Origin: Cytophagaceae bacterium
GTDB taxonomy: Bacteria; Bacteroidota; Bacteroidia; Cytophagales; Flexibacteraceae
Length of the DNA stretch: 64,000 bases
NCBI GenBank assembly: GCA_947458545.1
Contig: CANGYH010000001.1
Span: 992,001 to 1,056,000 of the forward strand
Direction of reading: 5' to 3'
Part shown: one piece after another, positions 45,336 through 60,339 of the stretch
Numbering within the stretch: the first letter of the stretch is position 1
Layout: every line of letters begins with the position of its first letter
Notes under the pieces: model-generated
Told to the model about the DNA's origin: nothing
The model's input: the letters and a program-made list of their open reading frames with translations, nothing else
The model's database searches: none
Made by a program: the position numbers and the translations under genes

Positions 45336-46781
45336 ATGGCATCTTGGCGCTTGTTTTCACTTGCTTCTTTCATCAAACTGTCTGCTGTAGGCGTTTTGGC
45401 TGTGGTAGGGGGCTATGCAGGCAGCCACATCTACCGGCTGAACGCCACCAGCGAGATTGCCGGGCCAACGGGAACGCCGGTGCCGACCTGGCAGATGGCT
45501 CTGCCGCCGGGTGGCGCTCATGCAGGTGCCTTAGATTTTGTGGCGGCCAGTGAGGCTGCTATCCCCTCGGTGGTATACATCACCAGCGTGTCGGCCCAGC
45601 AAGAGAGCTCTTTAGATTGGTTCTTCTTCGGTGCGCCGGCCAGCCAGCAAACCAGCTCTGGGTCTGGTGTTATTTTCTCGGCCAATGGGTACATCGTAAC
45701 CAACAACCATGTCATCGACCAGGCCGAAACCATAGAGGTGCTGCATCAGCGCAAGAGCTACACGGCGCGGGTGGTAGGTACAGACCCATCGACAGACCTG
45801 GCGTTGCTGAAAATAGACGGACAGGGCTTCCCGGCCATACGGGTGGCAGACAGCCGAAAGGTTGCCGTCGGCGAGTGGGTGCTGGCCGTGGGCAACCCCT
45901 TTAACCTGACCTCTACCGTGACGGCTGGCATTATTTCTGCCAAAGGGCGCAACATCAATATACTAAACAGCCAGTTTCCGATAGAGAGCTTCATACAAAC
46001 CGACGCGGCCATAAACCCAGGCAACTCTGGCGGGGCCTTGGTAAATCTGAAGGGCGAGCTGGTGGGCATCAACACGGCCATCTTCTCTAAAACGGGCAGT
46101 TACACCGGCTATGGATTTGCAGTGCCGTCTGACATAGTCAAAAAAGTAGTTGAAGACCTGATCAAGTATGGCACCGTTCAAAAGGCTTTTTTAGGAGCCG
46201 AGGTGCAAGAGGTAGATAGCAAGCTTGCCAAAAAGCTTGACCTGCCCGACTATAAAGGTGTTGTGCTGACGATGGTGAACGAGGAAGGCGCGGCCGCAGA
46301 AGCAGGCCTTAAGGCCAATGATGTAGTCCTTAAGCTGAACGGCCAACCTATTACGGGCAAGGGTGTATTTGACGAAGAAGTAAGCTACTACAACCCTGGC
46401 GACAAGGTAACGGTAAGCTTTCGCCGAGGCAAAGACATACGAACGGCCGTGATTACACTGCGCAACCGAGAAGGAACGACAGAGCTGGTGCGCCGCCAGA
46501 TGTTTTCTAGTAAAACCATTGGGGCTGATTTGGAGCCGCTAAGCAAGGTAGAGCGAGAGCGCTACAAGGTAGAAAATGGAGTACGCATTGCTAAGGCCTA
46601 TGCCAAGGGCCTTGTAAGGCGACTGGGCTTTGAGGAGGGCTTCGTGATCTTGTCCATCAACCAAGTGCCTGTGAAGGAGCCCCGAGACGTGGAACGGCTG
46701 CTGTCTGGAAACCAAAGCAGGATTGACGTGGAAGCAATCAACAAAAGTGGAAGAGTGGTGTACTACCAGTTTGGCTACTAG
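45336..46781 (+). CDS. HtrA/DegP-like periplasmic serine protease with two PDZ domains
   Basis: A 481-residue envelope protease for misfolded proteins. The N-terminal hydrophobic segment (about 10-30) may remain as a membrane anchor. The trypsin-like domain has the catalytic triad His125 (VTNNHVIDQA), Asp154 (DPSTDLALLKI) and Ser231 (NPGNSGGALV). PDZ1 follows at about 285-375 (EEGAAAEAGLKANDVVLKLNG) and a second, less conserved PDZ at about 405-480 (LGFEEGFVILSINQVPV). A linker between cleavage and catalysis (SSLDWFFFGAPASQQTSSGS) corresponds to the LA loop but is short. Stress control is likely but no sigma element is seen. Confidence 0.93.
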   Translation: MASWRLFSLASFIKLSAVGVLAVVGGYAGSHIYRLNATSEIAGPTGTPVPTWQMALPPGGAHAGALDFVAASEAAIPSVVYITSVSAQQESSLDWFFFGAPASQQTSSGSGVIFSANGYIVTNNHVIDQAETIEVLHQRKSYTARVVGTDPSTDLALLKIDGQGFPAIRVADSRKVAVGEWVLAVGNPFNLTSTVTAGIISAKGRNINILNSQFPIESFIQTDAAINPGNSGGALVNLKGELVGINTAIFSKTGSYTGYGFAVPSDIVKKVVEDLIKYGTVQKAFLGAEVQEVDSKLAKKLDLPDYKGVVLTMVNEEGAAAEAGLKANDVVLKLNGQPITGKGVFDEEVSYYNPGDKVTVSFRRGKDIRTAVITLRNREGTTELVRRQMFSSKTIGADLEPLSKVERERYKVENGVRIAKAYAKGLVRRLGFEEGFVILSINQVPVKEPRDVERLLSGNQSRIDVEAINKSGRVVYYQFGY

Positions 46782-49531: not shown

Positions 49532-49870
49532 ATGGGCAAACGCTTGCTATTGATAATGGCCATGTACTGTCTGGCAGTGGCCGGATACGCCCAGCGTAAC
49601 AGTACCTTTTGCGACCTAAAAGGCGCTGTGTTTGTTGTACCAGACAGAAGCCAAGCTACCTACAGGGTGTTTGTAGAAAAGTCTGAAGCGTTTGCCGATC
49701 TGTCTGTTTACAAGGCGCCCAACCTGCTATTTGCTGATAGGGGCGGGCTTTGGTACTTCTCTACTACGCGGGCACAGGCTGCTTTTACGGTAGCCTTTGT
49801 GGCAGAGAAGGCGTTGGCAGATTTTTCTATCTACTACATTGAAAACGAGTCGTTTGCAGGATGTCGCTAA
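49532..49870 (+). CDS. Secreted DUF6150-family repeat protein
   Basis: A 112-residue exported protein. After a signal peptide (MGKRLLLIMAMYCLAVAGYA) the mature part is made of short beta-strand repeats of the form V-x-V-x5-A-D/x-x-V-Y. These are VFVEKSEAFADLSVYKA, LWYFSTTRAQAAFTVAFVA and EKALADFSIYYIENESFAG. This is the DUF6150 pattern seen in Bacteroidota, function unknown. Its last 10 bases overlap the start of prmA, so the two are translated from one mRNA. The link between a secreted repeat protein and ribosome methylation is unexplained. Confidence 0.78.
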   Translation: MGKRLLLIMAMYCLAVAGYAQRNSTFCDLKGAVFVVPDRSQATYRVFVEKSEAFADLSVYKAPNLLFADRGGLWYFSTTRAQAAFTVAFVAEKALADFSIYYIENESFAGCR

Positions 49871-50733
49871 CCGGGCCTGAAGATTATTGGGAGCTAACGC
49901 TTGCCGTTGAGGGCGACGCAGCAGAGATTTGGACAGCAAGGCTTGCAGATGCGGGTTTTGAGATGTTTCTGGAAGAGGACCCGGGGCTGAAAGCCTACGT
50001 GCCTGCCAGCCAATACCAGGCAGAGCCTATTCAGGCGCTGGTACATGAGGCGCAGGGGGCTACGCCGCTCTTCGGGGGTTGGCAGCATATACCTGCCCAA
50101 AACTGGAACCAGACCTGGGAGAACCACTTTGAGCCCGTCCGTATTGCAGACCAGCTTTATGTACGTGCCCAGCACCACGCCCCAGACCCTGCCGCACGCC
50201 TAGAGCTCGTCATAGAGCCGAAGATGAGCTTTGGTACAGGGCACCATGCCACCACCAGCCAGGTGGCTGCCTTCCAGCTAGGGTTGCCGCATCAGGGTGC
50301 CACCGTCGTAGATGCGGGTAGTGGCACGGGGATTCTGGCTATTTTAGCTGAGAAGCTGGGTGCGGCTAGGGTAATTGCCTTTGACCACGAATCCTGGGCC
50401 ACAGAGAATGCCCGCGAAAACGCCGCCAACAATGGTTGTACCCGGGTAGAGGTATCGCAAGCCGACCTGGAGACATTTGAGCCGGGCGTATTGGCAGACG
50501 GCGTACTGGCCAATATTACCCGAAACCTGGTTATCACTTACCTGCCCCGGTTTGCGCAGTGGCTAAAACCGGGCGGCTGGCTACTTACCAGCGGCTATTA
50601 CGAGGATGACCTGGATGCCGTAAGGCAAGCCGCCGAGGCAGAAGGGCTAGCCTACATGGGGCACACCGTGCAAGAGAAGTGGTGTGCGGCACATTTTGGC
50701 AAGCCAACACAAAACAGTGCGGTTGGGCCGTAA
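49861..50733 (+). CDS. prmA: Ribosomal protein L11 methyltransferase
   Basis: PrmA trimethylates ribosomal protein L11 in the cytoplasm. The 290-residue protein has the L11-recognition domain (about 1-110, with QNWNQTWENHFEPVRIADQLYVRA) and the methyltransferase domain with SFGTGHHATTSQVAAFQL, the SAM motif VVDAGSGTGILAILAEKLGA and LANITRNLVITYLP. The length is normal. Its ATG lies inside the last codons of the DUF6150 gene and its 3' end overlaps a possible long start of the giant protein. Confidence 0.96.
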   Translation: MSLTGPEDYWELTLAVEGDAAEIWTARLADAGFEMFLEEDPGLKAYVPASQYQAEPIQALVHEAQGATPLFGGWQHIPAQNWNQTWENHFEPVRIADQLYVRAQHHAPDPAARLELVIEPKMSFGTGHHATTSQVAAFQLGLPHQGATVVDAGSGTGILAILAEKLGAARVIAFDHESWATENARENAANNGCTRVEVSQADLETFEPGVLADGVLANITRNLVITYLPRFAQWLKPGGWLLTSGYYEDDLDAVRQAAEAEGLAYMGHTVQEKWCAAHFGKPTQNSAVGP

Positions 50734-50739
50734 CATTTC

Positions 50740-50747
50740 TAACTTTA
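50740..50747 (+). promoter_or_regulatory. Possible -7 element (TAACTTTA) for the giant secreted protein
   Basis: One mismatch from TAnnTTTG, 60 bases before the proposed TTG start at 50807 and just after the prmA stop. Confidence 0.4.
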
Positions 50748-50806
50748 ACACTGCAAATGCGGGCCAGGCAACCCGTAAAATCGCGGCTAGAATAAACCTG
50801 AACCCG

Positions 50807-53800
50807 TTGGGCGCTTATCAAAAGGTATGCTGGCAATTAGGCAAGGGCTATAGCCATGGGCTTTTTGCTGGGGCAAAGCGCGCTTTAGGTTTGGTTATAT
50901 GCCTGGGGTTGCTGTTTTGTGCAGGCACTGCTGGTGCGCAAACCAAGCCTGGTACGCTTAAGCCTCGGTGGAGTACGGTGCCAGATTCGTTTGCTACAGA
51001 AGTAACCAACATGATGCGCCTCTCTAAAGATCCGGCGCAGACAGAGGCCGCAGATGCTTTTGGGGCGGCATGGGGTAGCTTATCGGAGGCACATAAGGCC
51101 AGCCTAATGGCGGCTTGCACTGAGTTTGACAAGCGCAGGTACCGCGCTAGCCCCTACTACCTGGCTCTGATGCAACTGGTGGTGCAGGGTGTGCAATCGC
51201 TGGGTAATGACAAGACCAACCTGGATGGCCTGATGGCCTGTATCCAAAAAACGGCCTTACAAGAGCCTGCCCGCAATTGGGTGCCCTTTTGCGACAGGAT
51301 GAAGTTCTTTCTGGTAAACCAGGCGTTGTATTTCAACAAGTTTTATACGTTGCGGGTAGGCCCCGGAGCTTATAAAATCGAATATGCCGATCAGAGCACT
51401 GATGTGGCGGACACGATAGCTGCAACACCTGCCGAGGCAGCGCCTGCACAGCAGAAATTTGATGAATGGAACAGTGAGCCGGCACCTGTAACTGCCGAAG
51501 ATGCGGCCCTGACGACGTCTGAGGCACTACAACAAGGGCCAGACGTAGTGCAGCCGGGGCTAGAAGGTGCCATCATTCGCTTTACGAAAGTGGACCTAAC
51601 GCTTGGCACTGGCTACGACAGCACCACCATTTATGGCACCAGCGGCGTATTTATGCTGGCTAAGAACCACTGGGTAGGAGAAGGCGGCAAGTTTGACTGG
51701 ACGGTGGCAGGCCTAGCACCTGACGAGGCTTACGTAGAACTTGACAAGTACAACTTCCGCGCACAGATACCTGCCTTTACAGCTGAGAATACGACCCTGC
51801 ACTACCCTACCAAACTTGCCGAGCCGGTGAAAGGCGCGTTTGAGTTCAGGTCAGTCAAGCATGCCTCGCCTGAGGTAAGCCGGTATCCGCGGTTTATGAG
51901 CTATAATGCCGTGTCTGCCTATAAAAACCTGGGCGAGGATGTGGAGCTGGTGGGCGGGTTTTCGCTGGATGGGCGCAAGGTTAATACCAGCGCGGTTTAT
52001 CTGGGCAAAAGTTCTATTGCCATCAAGCACAAGGGGCAGGTTGTTTACCGCGGCATAAGCCGCCGATACGACTTGGGAGATACAGCCATTACCAGCCTGG
52101 GCACCTACTCGGTATTGCCGCGTGGGCTAGACTCCATCAGCCAGGCGCATGCGCGCCTGATTTACACGCGCAATCCTAGCCCGCAAATCAGGCTCTATAA
52201 AAACGTAGGGCAATACAAGGAGGCTCCTTTTTTTGACAGCTACTACCGGGTAGAGATTACTTGCGAGGCCTTGTTCTACAACCTAGATAGCAACAAGATA
52301 GACTTTTGGAACGAGAGCAACAGGCTGCGCGCGCCGGTGGTGGTAGAGTCTATGGACTATTTTACCACAGACCGGTATGCCGATGTGCAGGGGCTGAACA
52401 AGTTTTCTCCGATTGGATTGCTGGCCAACAACTACACACGCACCAACAACAACGAACGATTTTACGCAGACGACATAGCCGAGCACTACAAGCTGAACGG
52501 CAGGCAGGTGCGCGGCGCGCTGCAAAGCCTGGCAAATGAAGGTTTTATAGACTACGACCCTGTATCTGGCGAGGGCACCCTGGGCCACAAGCTGAAGCAC
52601 TATTACAGCTCGATGAAGAAGACCAAGGATTACGACTTTATCGCAATCCAGTCTGTCGCGCCCGAGCGGATGAATGCCCGTATCGACCTTGACTCTAACT
52701 GCCTGTTTGTGTATGGGGTAGATCGGTTTTCGCTTAATGATTCGCTTGATGTGTCGATTAAGCCGCTCAACCGAAAGATAAAGCTCTACCAGAACCGAGA
52801 TTTCAGCTTCGACGGTGAGGTGCAGGCAGGGCCATTTTTGGTAAAGGGAGAGAAGTTCAACTTCAATTACAACTTTTACCAGATAGATCTGACCAAGATT
52901 GATTCGGTAGATGTAATGGCCGACAAAAAGGTAAAGGGCCGCCAGCGTAAAAAGAGTGCCAGCCGCCTCTCTGGTGCTGACCGCAATGCCGAGACAACAG
53001 GCAAGCCCACCTTTACCAGCGGGGTGCTGCTGATTAACAAACCCGACAATAAGAGCAACTTACAAAACCTGCCCCAGTACCCGGTGTTCGATATCCAGGC
53101 ACCGTCGTACATCTATTTCGACAAGCCGACGGTGCTGAAGGGGGCCTACGACAAGCGGGTATTCTTTTATGTGCCTCCGTTTAAGGTCGATTCCATCTCT
53201 GGGCCTAACCTGGCCGCCATCTCATTTAACGGCACCTTCCATTCGGATGGAATATTCCCCGAGTTTGAAGAGAAGCTGGAGATCCAGCCAGACAAGACGA
53301 TGGGCTTTAACCACTCTACGCCGGCAGAGGGTTACAACTTGTATGGTAAAGGCCCGGCCAAGTTTTTTGGAGACATCTCGCTGAACGGTAAGGGTATCCG
53401 GGGCAAAGGAGAGATTAAATACCTGACTACGACGGTAAAGTCTGATGACTTTATCTTCTACCAAGACTCTGTAATTGCCAAGGGGCCGACGGTGCGCATG
53501 GAAAAAGGCACCTACGGAGACTCTGCTGCCTACCCAGATGCTTATGCCCAAGACTTCGCCATGAAGTGGAGCACCAAGCAAGACACCATGTACCTAACCA
53601 ACGTGGGGAAAACGCCTTGGTACTTTTACGGCAAACGGGTGCGGATGAATGGCACCTTGGCCATTAACGAGACGGGCGCCTATGGATATGGTCTTATAAA
53701 AGCGGCAGGATCGCGGGCAGAAAGCCCGGCTTACAGCTTTAAGCACGACCGTATTACAGGCCGGAATGCTTTTTTTGAGGTACAGTCTGCCAACCCGGTT

Positions 53801-56254
53801 AAGCCTGCCTTCGCCTGTAAGAACGTAAAGTTTGACTTCTATGTGGACGACGAGTACGCCACGTTTAGCCCGGAGGTGGAAGGTGAGGCCAGCAACGAGT
53901 TTCCGTATGCACGTTACAAGACGAGCATACCCAAGGCGACGTGGGACCTGAAAAAGAAGACCGTAACGATGAATAAGCCGGAGGATGCCGAGCTATCGTC
54001 TTCTATCTTCTACAGTACGCTACCAGAACAAGACTCGCTTAATTTTATGGCGACGGGGGCCGTTTACGACATCGCCAATAACAAGCTGGCAATATCTGGC
54101 GTGCCCTTTATCTACGTGGCCGACGGGATGGTGATACCAGACTCGGGGCGGGTAGAGATTCTGGAGAATGCGGAGATGACTCCGCTGAAAAAATCGGTTC
54201 TCATTCTTGATACCATCAATAAGTATCATCGCCTTATAGATGCCAGCATCACCGTAAAAAGCCGCTATGCCTTTGAGGGTGAGGCCACTTACTTGTATGT
54301 AAACACGGTGAACGACACACTCAAAATCAAGTTTGACAAGTTTGAGTTTATCACCGAGAAGGAGGGCAAAAACGGCGGGGATCCCATATTGCACACCAAG
54401 TCTGGCGGCGAGATCATGGAGGACGCACCACTGAAAATTGCCGATGGAGTGCTCTTTAAGGGAACAGCTACGATGTGGGCCAACAGGCCGACGCTGGAGT
54501 TCCAGGGTTTTGTGAAGCTAGACCTGCGCAAGACCGATACCGAGTGGCTTAAGTACGAAAGCACGGGCGAGAGCAAGGAGTTTGTGCTAGACCTGAAAAA
54601 CGCTGCCGATGCCGACGGAAACCCGGTAACGACGGGCCTCTTCATAGAAGACGGGGCAGCCAACCTCTATGGGGTGTTTGTGAACGGCAAACGTACCTCG
54701 GCCGACCAGGAGGTTTTTGCCGTGACCGGGGTGATGAATTTCAACTCTGAGACGAAGGAGTTCAGGGTAGGGTCGGCCGAGCGCCTGGCCGAAAAGACAA
54801 CTGAGGGCAACATCTTCGCCTACAACGACTCTACAGGGCGTACCTCGTTTGAGGGTAAGCTCAACTTTTTGCGCAACAACACGAGCGACTTCAACATCAA
54901 AGCGGCAGGCACTGGAGCAGGCCTCATGGACTCGGCCGACTTTGACATCAACGCTGTATTGGCGCTGCAGATGAGCCTGCCCACAAAGGCCTGGGCCAGC
55001 ATGACGAAAACGGCCCAGCAGCGCATAAAAGACCTGGGCTTGCCCGAAGCCATGGGAGACCGCGGCTTGTTTGGGCAACGGGTAATAGACCTCTTTGGTA
55101 AAAACGTGGGCGACGCTTTCCGCAAGGGGGGCAACAAGCCCGTACACGAGCTAGTCCCTAAGCTGGCAAAGGGCGTTACGTTTACGGATCTGGGCCTGAA
55201 ATGGAATAAGAAATACGCCGCCTTCTACACACCGCTGAAAGAGGGAGATGAGATGTTTGCCAAACTCAACATTCTCAATATCCTCAATACGAATCTGAAC
55301 GCCCAACTGAATGGGTATCTCGAGATTAAAAAGGCAGATGGGCTGGATATAATCTCGCTCTATATAGAGGCATCGCCCGATGCATGGTGGTTTATCACTT
55401 TTGACGATCAGCAACGGCTGGCAGCCACCAGCTCTGTGGCAGAGTTTACCGATGCCGTGCAAGAAAAAAGCAAAGGCGTAAAACCTGGCAGCTTTTACCT
55501 GGAGGCTACCGACGAGCAGGAGAAGAATCAGTTCTTAAAACATTTCCGCCAGGATTACCTGGGCATGAAGGTGAACGATGCCGACTACGAGACCAAACCC
55601 AAAGAGGAGGCAGAGCCTGCTGAAGGTGAGGAGGAAGAAAAACCTAAAGACGAGGTAGCCTCAGACGATACGGACGAGAATCCTGACGCCAGCACCGACG
55701 ACGGCAAGGATAAAAAAGGCAAGAAAGGCAAAAAGAAGAAGAAACAAGACGACCAAACCGAGGCGCCTGCTGCCGAAGACGCTGGTGCGGATGATGGGTT
55801 TGGAGGCAGCGACGAAAGCAAGCCAGCCAAAGAAAAACCTGCAGACGAAGAAGAGAGCGAAGAAACGGCTAAACCAGATACAGACTCTACCGCAGGGACT
55901 GATAGCACCCTTACAGAGCCCGCAAAACCGGCTGAGGAGAAGCCCAAAGAAGTAGAAGAACCCAAGCAGGACGAAAAGCCTGCGGAAGAGTCTAAGCCTG
56001 AGCCAGCCGCAGAAGAAAAACAAGAAGAGAAAACAGACGGAAAACCTGCTGAAACCACCCCTGCAGAAGGCGATGCAGGGTTTGGCGCCGAAGAAGAAAA
56101 GCCGGTAGATACCCCTAAAAAGGAAGATTCTAAAGACGAAAAACCTAAAAAGAAGGAAAAAGACAAAAAGAAAGAAGAGCCCAAAAAAGACGAAAAGCCA
56201 GCCGAAGGCGATAAGAAAGACGAGGAGAAAAAGGAGGAAGGCGAAGGCTTTTAA
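50807..56254 (+). CDS. Giant secreted protein of unknown function with a Lys/Glu/Pro-rich C-terminal tail
   Basis: I do not recognise a named family. The product has about 1,815 residues from TTG 50807; the frame is open from GTG 50684 (1,856 residues), but that overlaps prmA. A signal sequence (RALGLVICLGLLFCAGTAGA) shows export. The N-terminal quarter is partly helical. A segment near 620-680 (numbered from GTG 50684) resembles a winged helix (LNGRQVRGALQSLANEGFIDY). Most of the rest is long beta-rich sequence with repeated asides such as SDGIFPEFEEKLEI and GKGIRGKGEIKYL. The last 230 residues are almost only K, E, P, A, D, S and T, with GFG repeated (DDGFGGSDE, DAGFGAEEE, then GEGF). There is no T9SS sorting domain or outer membrane anchor. 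It ends at a hairpin. Confidence 0.8.
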   Translation: MGAYQKVCWQLGKGYSHGLFAGAKRALGLVICLGLLFCAGTAGAQTKPGTLKPRWSTVPDSFATEVTNMMRLSKDPAQTEAADAFGAAWGSLSEAHKASLMAACTEFDKRRYRASPYYLALMQLVVQGVQSLGNDKTNLDGLMACIQKTALQEPARNWVPFCDRMKFFLVNQALYFNKFYTLRVGPGAYKIEYADQSTDVADTIAATPAEAAPAQQKFDEWNSEPAPVTAEDAALTTSEALQQGPDVVQPGLEGAIIRFTKVDLTLGTGYDSTTIYGTSGVFMLAKNHWVGEGGKFDWTVAGLAPDEAYVELDKYNFRAQIPAFTAENTTLHYPTKLAEPVKGAFEFRSVKHASPEVSRYPRFMSYNAVSAYKNLGEDVELVGGFSLDGRKVNTSAVYLGKSSIAIKHKGQVVYRGISRRYDLGDTAITSLGTYSVLPRGLDSISQAHARLIYTRNPSPQIRLYKNVGQYKEAPFFDSYYRVEITCEALFYNLDSNKIDFWNESNRLRAPVVVESMDYFTTDRYADVQGLNKFSPIGLLANNYTRTNNNERFYADDIAEHYKLNGRQVRGALQSLANEGFIDYDPVSGEGTLGHKLKHYYSSMKKTKDYDFIAIQSVAPERMNARIDLDSNCLFVYGVDRFSLNDSLDVSIKPLNRKIKLYQNRDFSFDGEVQAGPFLVKGEKFNFNYNFYQIDLTKIDSVDVMADKKVKGRQRKKSASRLSGADRNAETTGKPTFTSGVLLINKPDNKSNLQNLPQYPVFDIQAPSYIYFDKPTVLKGAYDKRVFFYVPPFKVDSISGPNLAAISFNGTFHSDGIFPEFEEKLEIQPDKTMGFNHSTPAEGYNLYGKGPAKFFGDISLNGKGIRGKGEIKYLTTTVKSDDFIFYQDSVIAKGPTVRMEKGTYGDSAAYPDAYAQDFAMKWSTKQDTMYLTNVGKTPWYFYGKRVRMNGTLAINETGAYGYGLIKAAGSRAESPAYSFKHDRITGRNAFFEVQSANPVKPAFACKNVKFDFYVDDEYATFSPEVEGEASNEFPYARYKTSIPKATWDLKKKTVTMNKPEDAELSSSIFYSTLPEQDSLNFMATGAVYDIANNKLAISGVPFIYVADGMVIPDSGRVEILENAEMTPLKKSVLILDTINKYHRLIDASITVKSRYAFEGEATYLYVNTVNDTLKIKFDKFEFITEKEGKNGGDPILHTKSGGEIMEDAPLKIADGVLFKGTATMWANRPTLEFQGFVKLDLRKTDTEWLKYESTGESKEFVLDLKNAADADGNPVTTGLFIEDGAANLYGVFVNGKRTSADQEVFAVTGVMNFNSETKEFRVGSAERLAEKTTEGNIFAYNDSTGRTSFEGKLNFLRNNTSDFNIKAAGTGAGLMDSADFDINAVLALQMSLPTKAWASMTKTAQQRIKDLGLPEAMGDRGLFGQRVIDLFGKNVGDAFRKGGNKPVHELVPKLAKGVTFTDLGLKWNKKYAAFYTPLKEGDEMFAKLNILNILNTNLNAQLNGYLEIKKADGLDIISLYIEASPDAWWFITFDDQQRLAATSSVAEFTDAVQEKSKGVKPGSFYLEATDEQEKNQFLKHFRQDYLGMKVNDADYETKPKEEAEPAEGEEEEKPKDEVASDDTDENPDASTDDGKDKKGKKGKKKKKQDDQTEAPAAEDAGADDGFGGSDESKPAKEKPADEEESEETAKPDTDSTAGTDSTLTEPAKPAEEKPKEVEEPKQDEKPAEESKPEPAAEEKQEEKTDGKPAETTPAEGDAGFGAEEEKPVDTPKKEDSKDEKPKKKEKDKKKEEPKKDEKPAEGDKKDEEKKEEGEGF

Positions 56255-57756: not shown

Positions 57757-58440
57757 TTAGGCAAGCCATACCCGGCTGGGGGCAGCGTCTAGCGCCCACT
57801 TGGCGGGCGCAATAAAGACGGTGTAGGCACCGTCGGGCACATGGCTTGGCACAAATACAAGCTCTGTAATGGTGGCATGCCGCCGCAATGGAGCGGGGCC
57901 CTCCGTCTGCCAAAAAGCCTTGTGAAACAAGAGTTTACCCCCATCTATCTCAGGGTCTACAGAAGGCAAATCAACCAGTAGATGGTCTATACCCAAGGCC
58001 ACAAGGCGGTGGGCAAGGGCAGGCTCTAAATAGGGTGGATTGGTGCCAGAGTAATTACGAACCGCCTTGGCTGTATCATTGGGCAAAGTGCGAAAAATCA
58101 CCGCCTCTTTTAGGCCGGGTTGGGGTAGCCTTGCCGCCACCGATGCCAAGGTGACCACCTGATCACGCCCGACTTGCTCGGGCGCCGCTGTGATGAGGGT
58201 GGCAGCAAATTGAAAGCGCGTCAGACACTTATCGATGGTAGCCTCCGGGTCCGCAGAGATGTGGCCGTAGCACTCCGTATGGGTGCCCGTGCCGTGGGGG
58301 GTAAAACGGATCTCCTTATGGTTTACGGTACCGCATTCTGCTACGGAACCTACCCAGTCTCCTGCACGGACGGGGTCGGCCGAGAAGGGGTCGGCATAGT
58401 AGCAAAGGGCGCCGGGCGAGGTCAGGGTGATGTCGTGCAT
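57757..58440 (-). CDS. Cyclase-family metal-dependent hydrolase (kynurenine formamidase-like)
   Basis: A 227-residue protein of the cyclase/KynB family, which hydrolyses amides such as N-formylkynurenine. The metal motif HxGTHxD is here FTPHGTGTHTECYGHI, where Glu replaces the usual Asp. GIDHLLVDLPSVDPEIDGG gives the later conserved Asp block, and LLFHKAFW is followed by a C-terminal beta-rich core. The Glu change and the unusual spacing leave the substrate open. The gene is divergent from the MORN-repeat gene. A -7-like element (CATTTTTG) lies at 58466-58473. Confidence 0.85.
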   Translation of the reverse strand: MHDITLTSPGALCYYADPFSADPVRAGDWVGSVAECGTVNHKEIRFTPHGTGTHTECYGHISADPEATIDKCLTRFQFAATLITAAPEQVGRDQVVTLASVAARLPQPGLKEAVIFRTLPNDTAKAVRNYSGTNPPYLEPALAHRLVALGIDHLLVDLPSVDPEIDGGKLLFHKAFWQTEGPAPLRRHATITELVFVPSHVPDGAYTVFIAPAKWALDAAPSRVWLA

Positions 58441-58560
58441 GACTATTCTTCAAAAGGGCTGCATGCAAAAATGGGCGGCCAAAGCTTTAAGCGCTGCGTT
58501 GCTGTGGCAGGTCTACCCTTGAAATGGCAATCTGCCCCCCTGCCCCCATATTTACACCTT

Positions 58561-60339
58561 GTGAGAAAAGCCCTCTGGCTATGGATAGCCTGCTGCCTTA
58601 GCGGGGCAGCCCAGGCCCAACCCGCCGATTTAATTCAGCGTTTTTACGACGTGATGATGACCACGCCAGGCCGCGGGCCAGTGGTTGCCGGCAAGCGGGA
58701 GGGCACCTGGACTTTTGCCGACCCTGCTACGGGTAAGCGGCGTGCCGTATTAGACTTTAAGGACGACTATCTGAATGGCCCGGCCACGCTCTTTGACCAA
58801 GACTCGATGCCGGACGTAACGGCTACCTTTCTATTAGAGAACCTGAATGGTCCCTTCCAAACTTTTTACCCCAACGGGCAAGTCCGCGAGGAGGGGCAAT
58901 ACCTGACAGACCTGCTGGAGGGGCTTTACACGCGCTACTACCCCAACGGTAAGACGGCTGAGGAGGGCTACTTTCAGGACAGCTTGCGCGAGGGCACCTG
59001 GGTGCGGTATCGGCCCAACGGTGGCCTACAAGACAGTGGCCAATATCGTGTAGGGTTGCGCGATGCAGACTGGTTTTTCTTTTACGAGAACGGCAATTTG
59101 CAGCGGCATGAGTTCTATAAGGCAGGCCGCCTGCAACAAGGAACAGCCGTGCAAACGGCAGACGGAAAGCCTTTGCCCCCCGGAACATTACAGCAGGGCT
59201 CGGGGCTGTACTTGGCTTACGACTCGACCGGGCGGACAAAGGCTAGGATTCCATATAAAAACGGACTACCCGACGGGCTGGCCGAGTATTTGGACGACCA
59301 GGGCCGAAAGCGGCTGGAGGTACCTTTTGTAGAGGGTGTAACTGAGGGCTACCGCCGAGATTTATATCCGGACGGCAAGCTGGAAACGGAAACCTACCTG
59401 CGCAATGGCCTGGAGGAGGGCCCAAGCCGTAGCTACTATGCCAATGGAAAACTGCGCGAGCAAGGGTGGTTTCGGGCAGGCGTGCAAGACTCTGTTTGGA
59501 CGGAATACCATGCGAATGGAAGGGTGGCCTCCAGAGGCACGTTCGTAGCAGGGAAACCAGCCGGCGTTTGGGGTACCTTCCACGACAATGGCCAGCCTGC
59601 TATGCAGGTCTCCTACGCCAGCGGCAAGCGCCAAGGCAGGTACCAGAAGCTATATCCTGATGGCAAGCCCGAGGTGGTGGGTAAATACAACCAAGGGCTA
59701 AGAGATAGCACCTGGACGGAGTACACGGCGAAGCAAGGCATCAAATTGCAAGGCACCTATGTAACCGGGCAACCTATTGGTGTCCATGTGGCCTACGACG
59801 AAGATGGAAATCTGGAAGAGGAGGTACGCTACCGTGCAGGCACAGATGTGGCCTATGTAAAGCGATATCTAGCCGGCAAGAAGTTGTGGAAAGAAGGCAA
59901 ACTGGTGGGCGGAATGCCTGATTCGACCTGGGCCATTTACCGGGCCGATGGAGGCCCATTACAACAAGAGCTGTTTGCAAAGGGCCAGTTGGTGCAGGCC
60001 AGTGAGGCTACGGTAGATGGCAAGGTACTTGCCGGTAGTGGCTACCCTACCCCGGCAGGTATGCCGCGCCGTATCTACAATGCTTTCGGCCAGAGGGTGG
60101 AAGAAGGCCATTACAAAAACGGCCTGAAAGAGGGTAGCTGGAAAGAGTTTTCTGATAAAGGCAGCTTAGAAGCCGAAGGCACTTACCGAGCAGGCGTAAA
60201 AGAGGGCACTTGGGTTCTATACGACGAAAAGGGCCGAAAAGCCCGAATGGGCCGCTTTGAGGCTAACGAACCCGTCGGGATCTGGGAGGTATACGACAAA
60301 AAGGGCCGGCTTACCGGCACACTAGCGGTAGAAGATTAG
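58561..60339 (+). CDS. Exported YwqK/MORN-repeat protein
   Basis: A 592-residue exported protein built of many 20-25-residue MORN-variant repeats such as NGQVREEGQYLTDLLEG, NGKTAEEGYFQDSLREGTWV and NGLKEGSWKEFSDKGSLE. The GTG at 58561 starts a signal peptide (MRKALWLWIACCLSGAAQAQ); the frame is open 387 bases further upstream but overlaps the divergent cyclase gene and lacks homology. These proteins are often named YwqK antitoxins, but nothing here looks like a toxin. Beta-solenoid packing at the cell surface is likely. It starts an apparent operon with the Cys-rich lipoprotein (7 bases apart) and the TIGR02757 gene. Confidence 0.88.
   Translation: MRKALWLWIACCLSGAAQAQPADLIQRFYDVMMTTPGRGPVVAGKREGTWTFADPATGKRRAVLDFKDDYLNGPATLFDQDSMPDVTATFLLENLNGPFQTFYPNGQVREEGQYLTDLLEGLYTRYYPNGKTAEEGYFQDSLREGTWVRYRPNGGLQDSGQYRVGLRDADWFFFYENGNLQRHEFYKAGRLQQGTAVQTADGKPLPPGTLQQGSGLYLAYDSTGRTKARIPYKNGLPDGLAEYLDDQGRKRLEVPFVEGVTEGYRRDLYPDGKLETETYLRNGLEEGPSRSYYANGKLREQGWFRAGVQDSVWTEYHANGRVASRGTFVAGKPAGVWGTFHDNGQPAMQVSYASGKRQGRYQKLYPDGKPEVVGKYNQGLRDSTWTEYTAKQGIKLQGTYVTGQPIGVHVAYDEDGNLEEEVRYRAGTDVAYVKRYLAGKKLWKEGKLVGGMPDSTWAIYRADGGPLQQELFAKGQLVQASEATVDGKVLAGSGYPTPAGMPRRIYNAFGQRVEEGHYKNGLKEGSWKEFSDKGSLEAEGTYRAGVKEGTWVLYDEKGRKARMGRFEANEPVGIWEVYDKKGRLTGTLAVED

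Follow-up and report, generated by a model that had tools for sequence, protein, structure and literature searches.

An unnamed, widespread giant exported protein of the Cytophagales with an Lpt-like predicted fold and a conserved acidic-glycine-aromatic tail tip

The lipopolysaccharide (LPS) bridge of LptA, LptC and the N-terminal part of LptD (LptD-N) is built from OstA-like beta-jellyrolls, and TamB/AsmA and the other bridge-like lipid-transfer proteins are likewise beta-rich, as well as very long. In Bacteroidota, the route of lipids across the periplasm is still under study, and TamL and TamB were reported in 2025 to be essential in Flavobacterium johnsoniae (PMC12045153). Here we describe a giant protein encoded in a 64,000-nucleotide stretch of DNA from a Cytophagaceae bacterium (contig CANGYH010000001.1, positions 992,001 to 1,056,000; below, the window), for which we computed the family, the predicted fold, an internal duplication and a conserved C-terminal tip. 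The whole open frame (50684..56254, + strand, as for all features of this gene) is uninterrupted over 1,856 codons from GTG 50684, from which residues are numbered here, and has orthologues in other genomes. With the alternative candidate start TTG 50807 (residue 42), the frame would have 1,815 codons. The original prediction for this locus, made from the sequence alone, had given a length of about 1,815 residues, which fits the TTG start, but coordinates (50684-56254) that give 1,856 codons.

We made two overlapping AlphaFold2 models from 65-row alignments of the window protein and the named loci, one of residues 88-1100 (model 1) and one of residues 600-1640 (model 2), with predicted local distance difference test (pLDDT) values of 87.3 and 87.6, respectively. 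In Foldseek searches, LptD chains were at the top for both models (E 4e-5 and 4e-6), and model 2 also had local matches to LptC (probability 0.99) and LptA (0.96), both at E 0.1. When the models were compared to known structures with VIA-align, Lpt chains filled the 13 leading rows for model 1 (Z 11.7 to 8.9) and the 17 leading rows for model 2 (Z 10.3 to 7.4), matching residues 419-703, 648-870 and 893-1141 of the giant. Unrelated rows started at Z 8.7 in model 1, with a winged helix, and at Z 6.8 in model 2. Since a best Z of 7-8 is typical of models without a clear match in this method, it is the model 1 values that carry the argument for an Lpt fold. The best match was found at residues 893-1096 (53360..53971), which aligned to LptD 9a39 at Z 11.7 (163 residues, root mean square deviation [rmsd] 3.9 A), to LptC 6mjp at Z 11.4 (122 residues, 2.9 A) and to LptH 4uu4 at Z 10.6 (112 residues, 3.2 A).

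At least two modules of the chain are predicted to share this fold (Z 11.4-11.7, 2.9-3.9 A, 122-163 residues). Module A (residues 411-708, 51914..52807) is an Lpt-like beta module in the model, matching LptD-N 9rps over residues 419-703 (Z 11.4, rmsd 3.0, 150 residues), and is split by a predicted winged-helix domain at residues 561-649 (52364..52630). Module B (residues 969-1166, 53588..54181) overlaps the LptC and LptA matches of model 2. In hhalign comparisons, module A with the winged helix omitted matched module B at 96.4% (E 1.3e-9, 187 columns) versus 0.8% for module B reversed, and the match was 81.9% (E 1.1e-5) when the winged helix was kept. Repeats spaced about 93 residues apart were also found at residues 833-1057 (81.7%, profile-profile). 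Judged by their sequence profiles, modules A and B are an internal duplication. For the winged helix, the VIA-align rows were led by the Rio2 N-domain at Z 8.7, a value little above the range common for this method, followed by YusO, CadC and MarR-like chains, and there was a weak sequence echo as well; the original prediction had already seen a possible winged-helix-like segment in this protein. Given export, DNA binding by this domain is unlikely. Besides the long beta region with these Lpt matches, the models show an all-helical N-terminal domain (residues 100-213, 50981..51322; model mcc3445c35d5d, pLDDT about 90), a short helical stretch (residues 1434-1495, 54983..55168) and a C-terminal alpha/beta domain (residues 1498-1627, 55175..55564), the last two in model m8f7bfc84734f.

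By sequence, the giant belongs to no family that we searched. Pfam returned no families at E<=1, including the PF04357 (TamB) and type IX secretion system (T9SS) C-terminal sorting domains. NCBIfam and PDB sequence searches gave chance-level matches only, most of them winged helix-turn-helix proteins and the best near residues 590-650, and six diverse orthologues likewise gave nothing above chance and no Lpt family. The original prediction of a protein without a known domain or family therefore holds for these sequence searches, including over the core, but not for the predicted fold, and it missed that the family is widespread. With the giant as query, 38 of the 39 genomes of our sample of the order matched (own included), mostly with one full-length copy and with 25-44% identity in the best matches; it is present in 37 of the 38 other genomes, three of them of just 1.6 Mb, and the sole genome without a match is 1.1 Mb. 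A 34-row profile matched 324 of 395 Bacteroidia genomes; in the three of these for which a pair of matches was given, both came from a single gene in two pieces. These counts also dispose of the idea of an orphan gene. In draws across the phylum, 11 of 296 and 11 of 198 genomes matched; no f23-f26 genome was in the matching rows, and absence there is not proven because scoring covered no more than two candidates from each genome. The relatives, among the best 80 of 145 loci, are mostly Cytophagales, with one Chitinophagaceae, and include Marivirga, Fulvivirga, Chryseolinea, Pontibacter, Sporocytophaga, Rhodocytophaga and Nafulsella. The giant is thus a real and widespread family that is unnamed in Pfam or NCBIfam. 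One genome outside the order (G351, locus L133, 5200-14546) carries two tandem paralogues of 1,549 and 1,566 residues. We found no description of the protein in the literature, for which coverage of subscription papers was mostly lacking.

Counted from TTG 50807 as start, the putative signal peptide would span residues 42-86 (50807..50941), with a hydropathy peak in windows starting at residues 60-68, an end judged by eye at AGTAGAQ and no lipobox by eye. There is no second membrane-like stretch, the best 19-residue hydropathy past residue 100 being 1.32. Export and the lack of a membrane anchor, both claimed in the original prediction, would fit these features, and its claim that there is no T9SS sorting domain agrees with the Pfam result and with a C terminus that is a charged tail. 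We rejected the possibility that the giant is a lipoprotein: the window's open frame showed no lipobox-like pattern, and among 80 open frames from relatives, 4 have one.

The C-terminal domain is followed by a low-complexity tail of 229 residues (residues 1628-1856, 55565..56251), of which 56% are D, E, K or R, in line with the 230-residue charged tail originally described. A frameshift or assembly product is an unlikely source, since the tail is in frame and relatives have tails of the same kind. We collected 81 rows (the window and the best 80 of the 145 loci) and removed two without a stop, leaving 79 tails. An acidic-(x)-G-F/W-COOH end was found in 54 of these, compared to 0.14 expected when each tail is shuffled, with F at position -1 in 59, G at -2 in 61 and D or E at -3 in 55. 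Mapped onto a quick core tree, the tip (55 rows with Tyr allowed) required 6 changes compared to a shuffled mean of 20.8. All 47 members of the largest clade have retained it, whereas none of the 16 Pontibacter-clade rows has it. As a control, we inspected 18 TamB ends from the same order and found the tip in none. Outside the order, where we read five of eight loci (six proteins), the tip was absent from the last residues, and three orthologues have 39-43 residues beyond window residue 1592 compared to 264 in the window protein. Tail and core, whose joint evolution had been raised as a question, do not evolve together: the core is found across the class, but the orthologues that we read from outside the order are short-ended and lack the tip, and tail length within the order ranges from 25 to 602. 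The tail belongs to the order.

In the window, the tail ends in E-G-E-G-F (56237..56251) and each of its three Phe residues comes after Gly, the other two lying in internal copies, D-D-G-F-G (55790..55804), which was found again by an internal-motif pattern search, and D-A-G-F-G (56072..56086). The original prediction of repeated GFG in the tail is therefore right for the two internal copies but not for the very end, which is GEGF. Among tails of at least 60 residues, there are 30 internal F/W past the first 20 residues, 10 of which follow Gly compared to 1.2 expected. All 10 sit in five rows of the clade of the window, and one tail (L057) holds 15 of the 30 with none after Gly. Internal acidic-GF/GW is also found in L055, L078, L083 and L107, with several copies in G018 and G036. 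A C-terminal motif pattern, outside which the EGEGF of the giant itself lies, had 5 matches in its own genome versus 8 reversed; two lacked a stop and the rest were no real gene end by eye. The internal-motif pattern, in which wobble letters allow codons beyond F and W, gave 64 matches versus 47 reversed across five genomes (18 versus 7 in G036, 10 versus 13 in the own genome), so there is no broad enrichment; in four genomes (G006, G008, G018 and G036), the tail of the giant is the only place with at least two such matches close together. Acidic-aromatic C-terminal tips are known from SSB and class III PDZ ligands, and repeated aromatic hooks from GW-repeat proteins. The giant resembles these in its disordered acidic tail with an aromatic end, repeated in some long tails, and differs in being exported and in having Gly ahead of the aromatic residue as part of the motif. 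The acidic-G-F/W tip is likely a docking hook, and the earlier suggestion of a docking signal in the GFG repeats gains support from the counts of ends and from the internal copies.

Across six relatives, a pattern search for D-D-G-F ahead of a stop gave 14 matches, 11 of them with a stop, and those that were real by eye were the giant in three genomes and a lipoprotein in one. The latter belongs to an undescribed family (L156/L160 in G028, L161-L170 and L195-L213) with a lipobox Cys, then C-P-A-Y-x-S-A-F, and often an acidic tail whose last residue is F or W. Of the 39 genomes sampled from the order, 19 match its profile, among them the window's own genome (copy at G000:C1:150104-150487, - strand), and the weaker matches (G011, G012, G022 and G027) may include non-orthologues. 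Scoring an end as tip-like if it has an acidic residue within positions -2 to -4 and an aromatic last residue, we found such lipoprotein ends in 10 of the 19 genomes. Both proteins have one in seven genomes (G002, G006, G010, G018, G022, G027 and G028), the giant only in three (own, G005 and G016), the lipoprotein only in three (G003, G007 and G036) and neither in six (G001, G004, G011, G012, G015 and G029). Examples of lipoprotein/giant ends are EEDKF/EDDGF, EDEKF/EEDGF, DDDDGF/DDDGF, DDANW/DDWDGF and KEDEGF/SADGF. An agreement in F or W between the two proteins in G018 and G036 was discarded given the full ends EEDDWDGF and DDDDGFRP; the internal G-W copies remain. The lipoprotein gene lies beside lptC in G002, G006 and G010, which are of one genus (PF06835 at E 5.6e-9 in G002, the others by reading), and near an MlaE gene and an ABC ATPase gene in G028 and, by reading, in G036. 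These observations are a lead toward a receptor shared by the two ends and do not prove one.

We propose, tentatively and with somewhat less than even confidence, that the giant is a protein of the periplasm with an Lpt fold, whose groove handles lipid or a similar cargo, and that it is tethered by a disordered tail that docks via acidic-aromatic motifs. This proposal is based on the Lpt-first ranking of both models and the A/B duplication; on the signal peptide without another membrane-like stretch, the tip conservation and the TamB-end control; and on the tip-like lipoprotein ends and the lipoprotein gene beside lptC. We infer from these a periplasmic location, a cargo in the groove, a receptor and a tethering tail. 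The giant would be a soluble periplasmic protein with several Lpt-like beta modules in a single chain, which by analogy with LptA, LptC and periplasmic LptD would probably present a hydrophobic groove. On the way toward the outer membrane, this groove could shield the acyl chains of an envelope lipid such as phospholipid or LPS, or else a like hydrophobic client. The disordered charged tail added in this order would serve as a tether, whose end, along with repeated internal copies in some lineages, may offer an acidic-Gly-Phe/Trp motif to a receptor that is either periplasmic or bound to a membrane. The tip might be recognized by a PDZ-like receptor or another that reads C-terminal ends, with the PDZ domains of the product of the HtrA-like gene of the window (45336-46781, named by reading) as candidates.

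Several results weigh against this proposal. Foldseek TM-scores are about 0.1, so just modules match; the first unrelated row of model 1 is barely under the last leading Lpt row; and hydrophobic alternation in the strands is modest, with 20 of 2,000 shuffles as high. The OstA, LptC and LptD Pfam models do not match the giant, hhalign against a set of 12 OstA_2 proteins from the order gave about 1% or less, no better than with reversed controls, and a profile of 18 partial TamB proteins of the order gave nothing beyond such controls. We therefore describe the giant as Lpt-like in predicted fold and not as an Lpt/OstA member by sequence. Its genome separately encodes OstA_2 (a 556-residue frame), LptD_2 (944) and two TamBs (1,659 and 1,594), which excludes the giant as the canonical form of any of these and makes it an addition that replaces none of them. 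The gene is not among lpt genes; its recurrent neighbors are PrmA, TpiA, M20 peptidase, PlsY and UvrA, and TpiA, PrmA and PlsY are housekeeping, with PlsY alone giving a hint of lipid. Pairing of giant and lipoprotein tips by genome was not significant (Fisher p 0.18, 19 genomes, relatedness ignored), and the window's own genome is discordant. Compared to LptA, LptC and LptD-N, which the giant resembles in export and in its modeled groove-type beta structure, it is also one chain of about 1,800 residues with an inserted winged helix, a helical N-domain, a C-domain and a tail.

A fold like that of the Lpt proteins is no proof that the cargo is lipid, and it is conceivable, though rather unlikely, that the giant is a periplasmic scaffold or chaperone in which the beta modules form a rigid arm for proteins such as outer-membrane proteins or peptidoglycan enzymes that are recruited by the tail. 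The winged helix and the N-terminal helical domain could bind protein, the tail resembles a multivalent protein-binding region, and single-layer beta proteins such as OspA also match the models (VIA-align Z 4-6), but Lpt chains rank over OspA and other unrelated beta rows in both. We consider it improbable that the giant is an LptD-like outer-membrane protein with periplasmic Lpt-like modules, in which part of the strands past residue 870 would be a membrane barrel. Foldseek does align nearly all of both models to LptD, barrel included, and some VIA-align rows extend through LptD residue 737, but those long rows have an rmsd near 30 A, residues 948-1141 match soluble LptC, LptA and LptH at 2.5-3.5 A, and LptD_2 is already present; a C-terminal barrel strand is lacking because a globular domain and a disordered tail come after.

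Least probable in our judgment is that the giant is a further bridge-like protein of the AsmA/TamB group, one without the membrane anchor, which would have been lost. It is similar to that group in size, beta-rich build and export, and a bridge-like protein complex (LPD-3) was matched by Foldseek at rank 38 (E 0.09), whereas the lack of PF04357 and of a profile match to the TamB proteins of the order, together with the two separate TamBs, argues otherwise, and the N-terminal hydrophobic stretch looks by eye to be cleavable rather than an anchor. That the tail is an inert low-complexity spacer with a GF end inherited without function is very doubtful: its absence with the tip from the orthologues read outside the order, and a core that can do without the tip in the Pontibacter clade, would fit such a spacer, but the linkers turn over fully while the last residues persist, and internal motif copies occur in several lineages.

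In the genomic neighborhood, the original prediction correctly placed the gene right after prmA (ribosomal protein L11 methyltransferase, 49861..50733, + strand; PF06325 at E 6e-46). At the 61 loci with enough flank (the window and 60 of the 80), a PrmA-family gene is present in 55 and directly upstream in 52, followed in frequency by TpiA (48), M20 peptidase (39), DUF6150 (27), PlsY (25) and UvrA (23); PrmA, TIM, PlsY and DUF6150 were checked by Pfam on single examples, and M20 and UvrA were named by reading. The orders TpiA-PrmA-giant-PlsY, PrmA-giant-PlsY and PrmA-giant, read outside the order as well (L137, L138 and L134), support the orthology of the giant. That PlsY adjoins the giant in some relatives points weakly to phospholipid. 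A promoter scan found no sigma-70-like site upstream of the gene, and the only nearby Bacteroidota-type match (TTTG/TAnnTTTG, 50864-50893) falls within signal-peptide codons, so the weak promoter of its own that had been assigned to it is not supported. Just before prmA, the window encodes a small DUF6150 protein (49532-49870, PF19647), a family found two genes ahead of the giant in the 27 loci counted above. Downstream of the giant are a metallo-beta-lactamase/rhodanese gene on the opposite strand and, at 58174-60339, a gene for a protein with MORN_2 repeats (PF07661, E 3.5e-37, 4 stretches). A plasmid origin was rejected, as there was no DNA match in plasmid records. In the order sample, OstA_2 was above the cut-off in 15 of 19 genomes searched, and the four without it (G006, G008, G009 and G010) all belong to genus g3, in which LptD_2 is present in G006 and G008 and an LptC-like gene, by reading, in G006 and G010.

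A broader and unlikely possibility is that the family acts in Bacteroidia alongside the Lpt and Tam systems, as a lipid conduit or carrier with an Lpt fold in one chain, to which this order would have added its own envelope docking code, with multivalent acidic-Gly-Phe/Trp motifs on the giant tail and the like end of the lipoprotein read by one common receptor. As a mostly single-copy, exported and unnamed protein with an Lpt-like predicted fold, the giant is a good candidate for a missing part of periplasmic lipid passage, and its conserved tip offers a simple handle on its partner.

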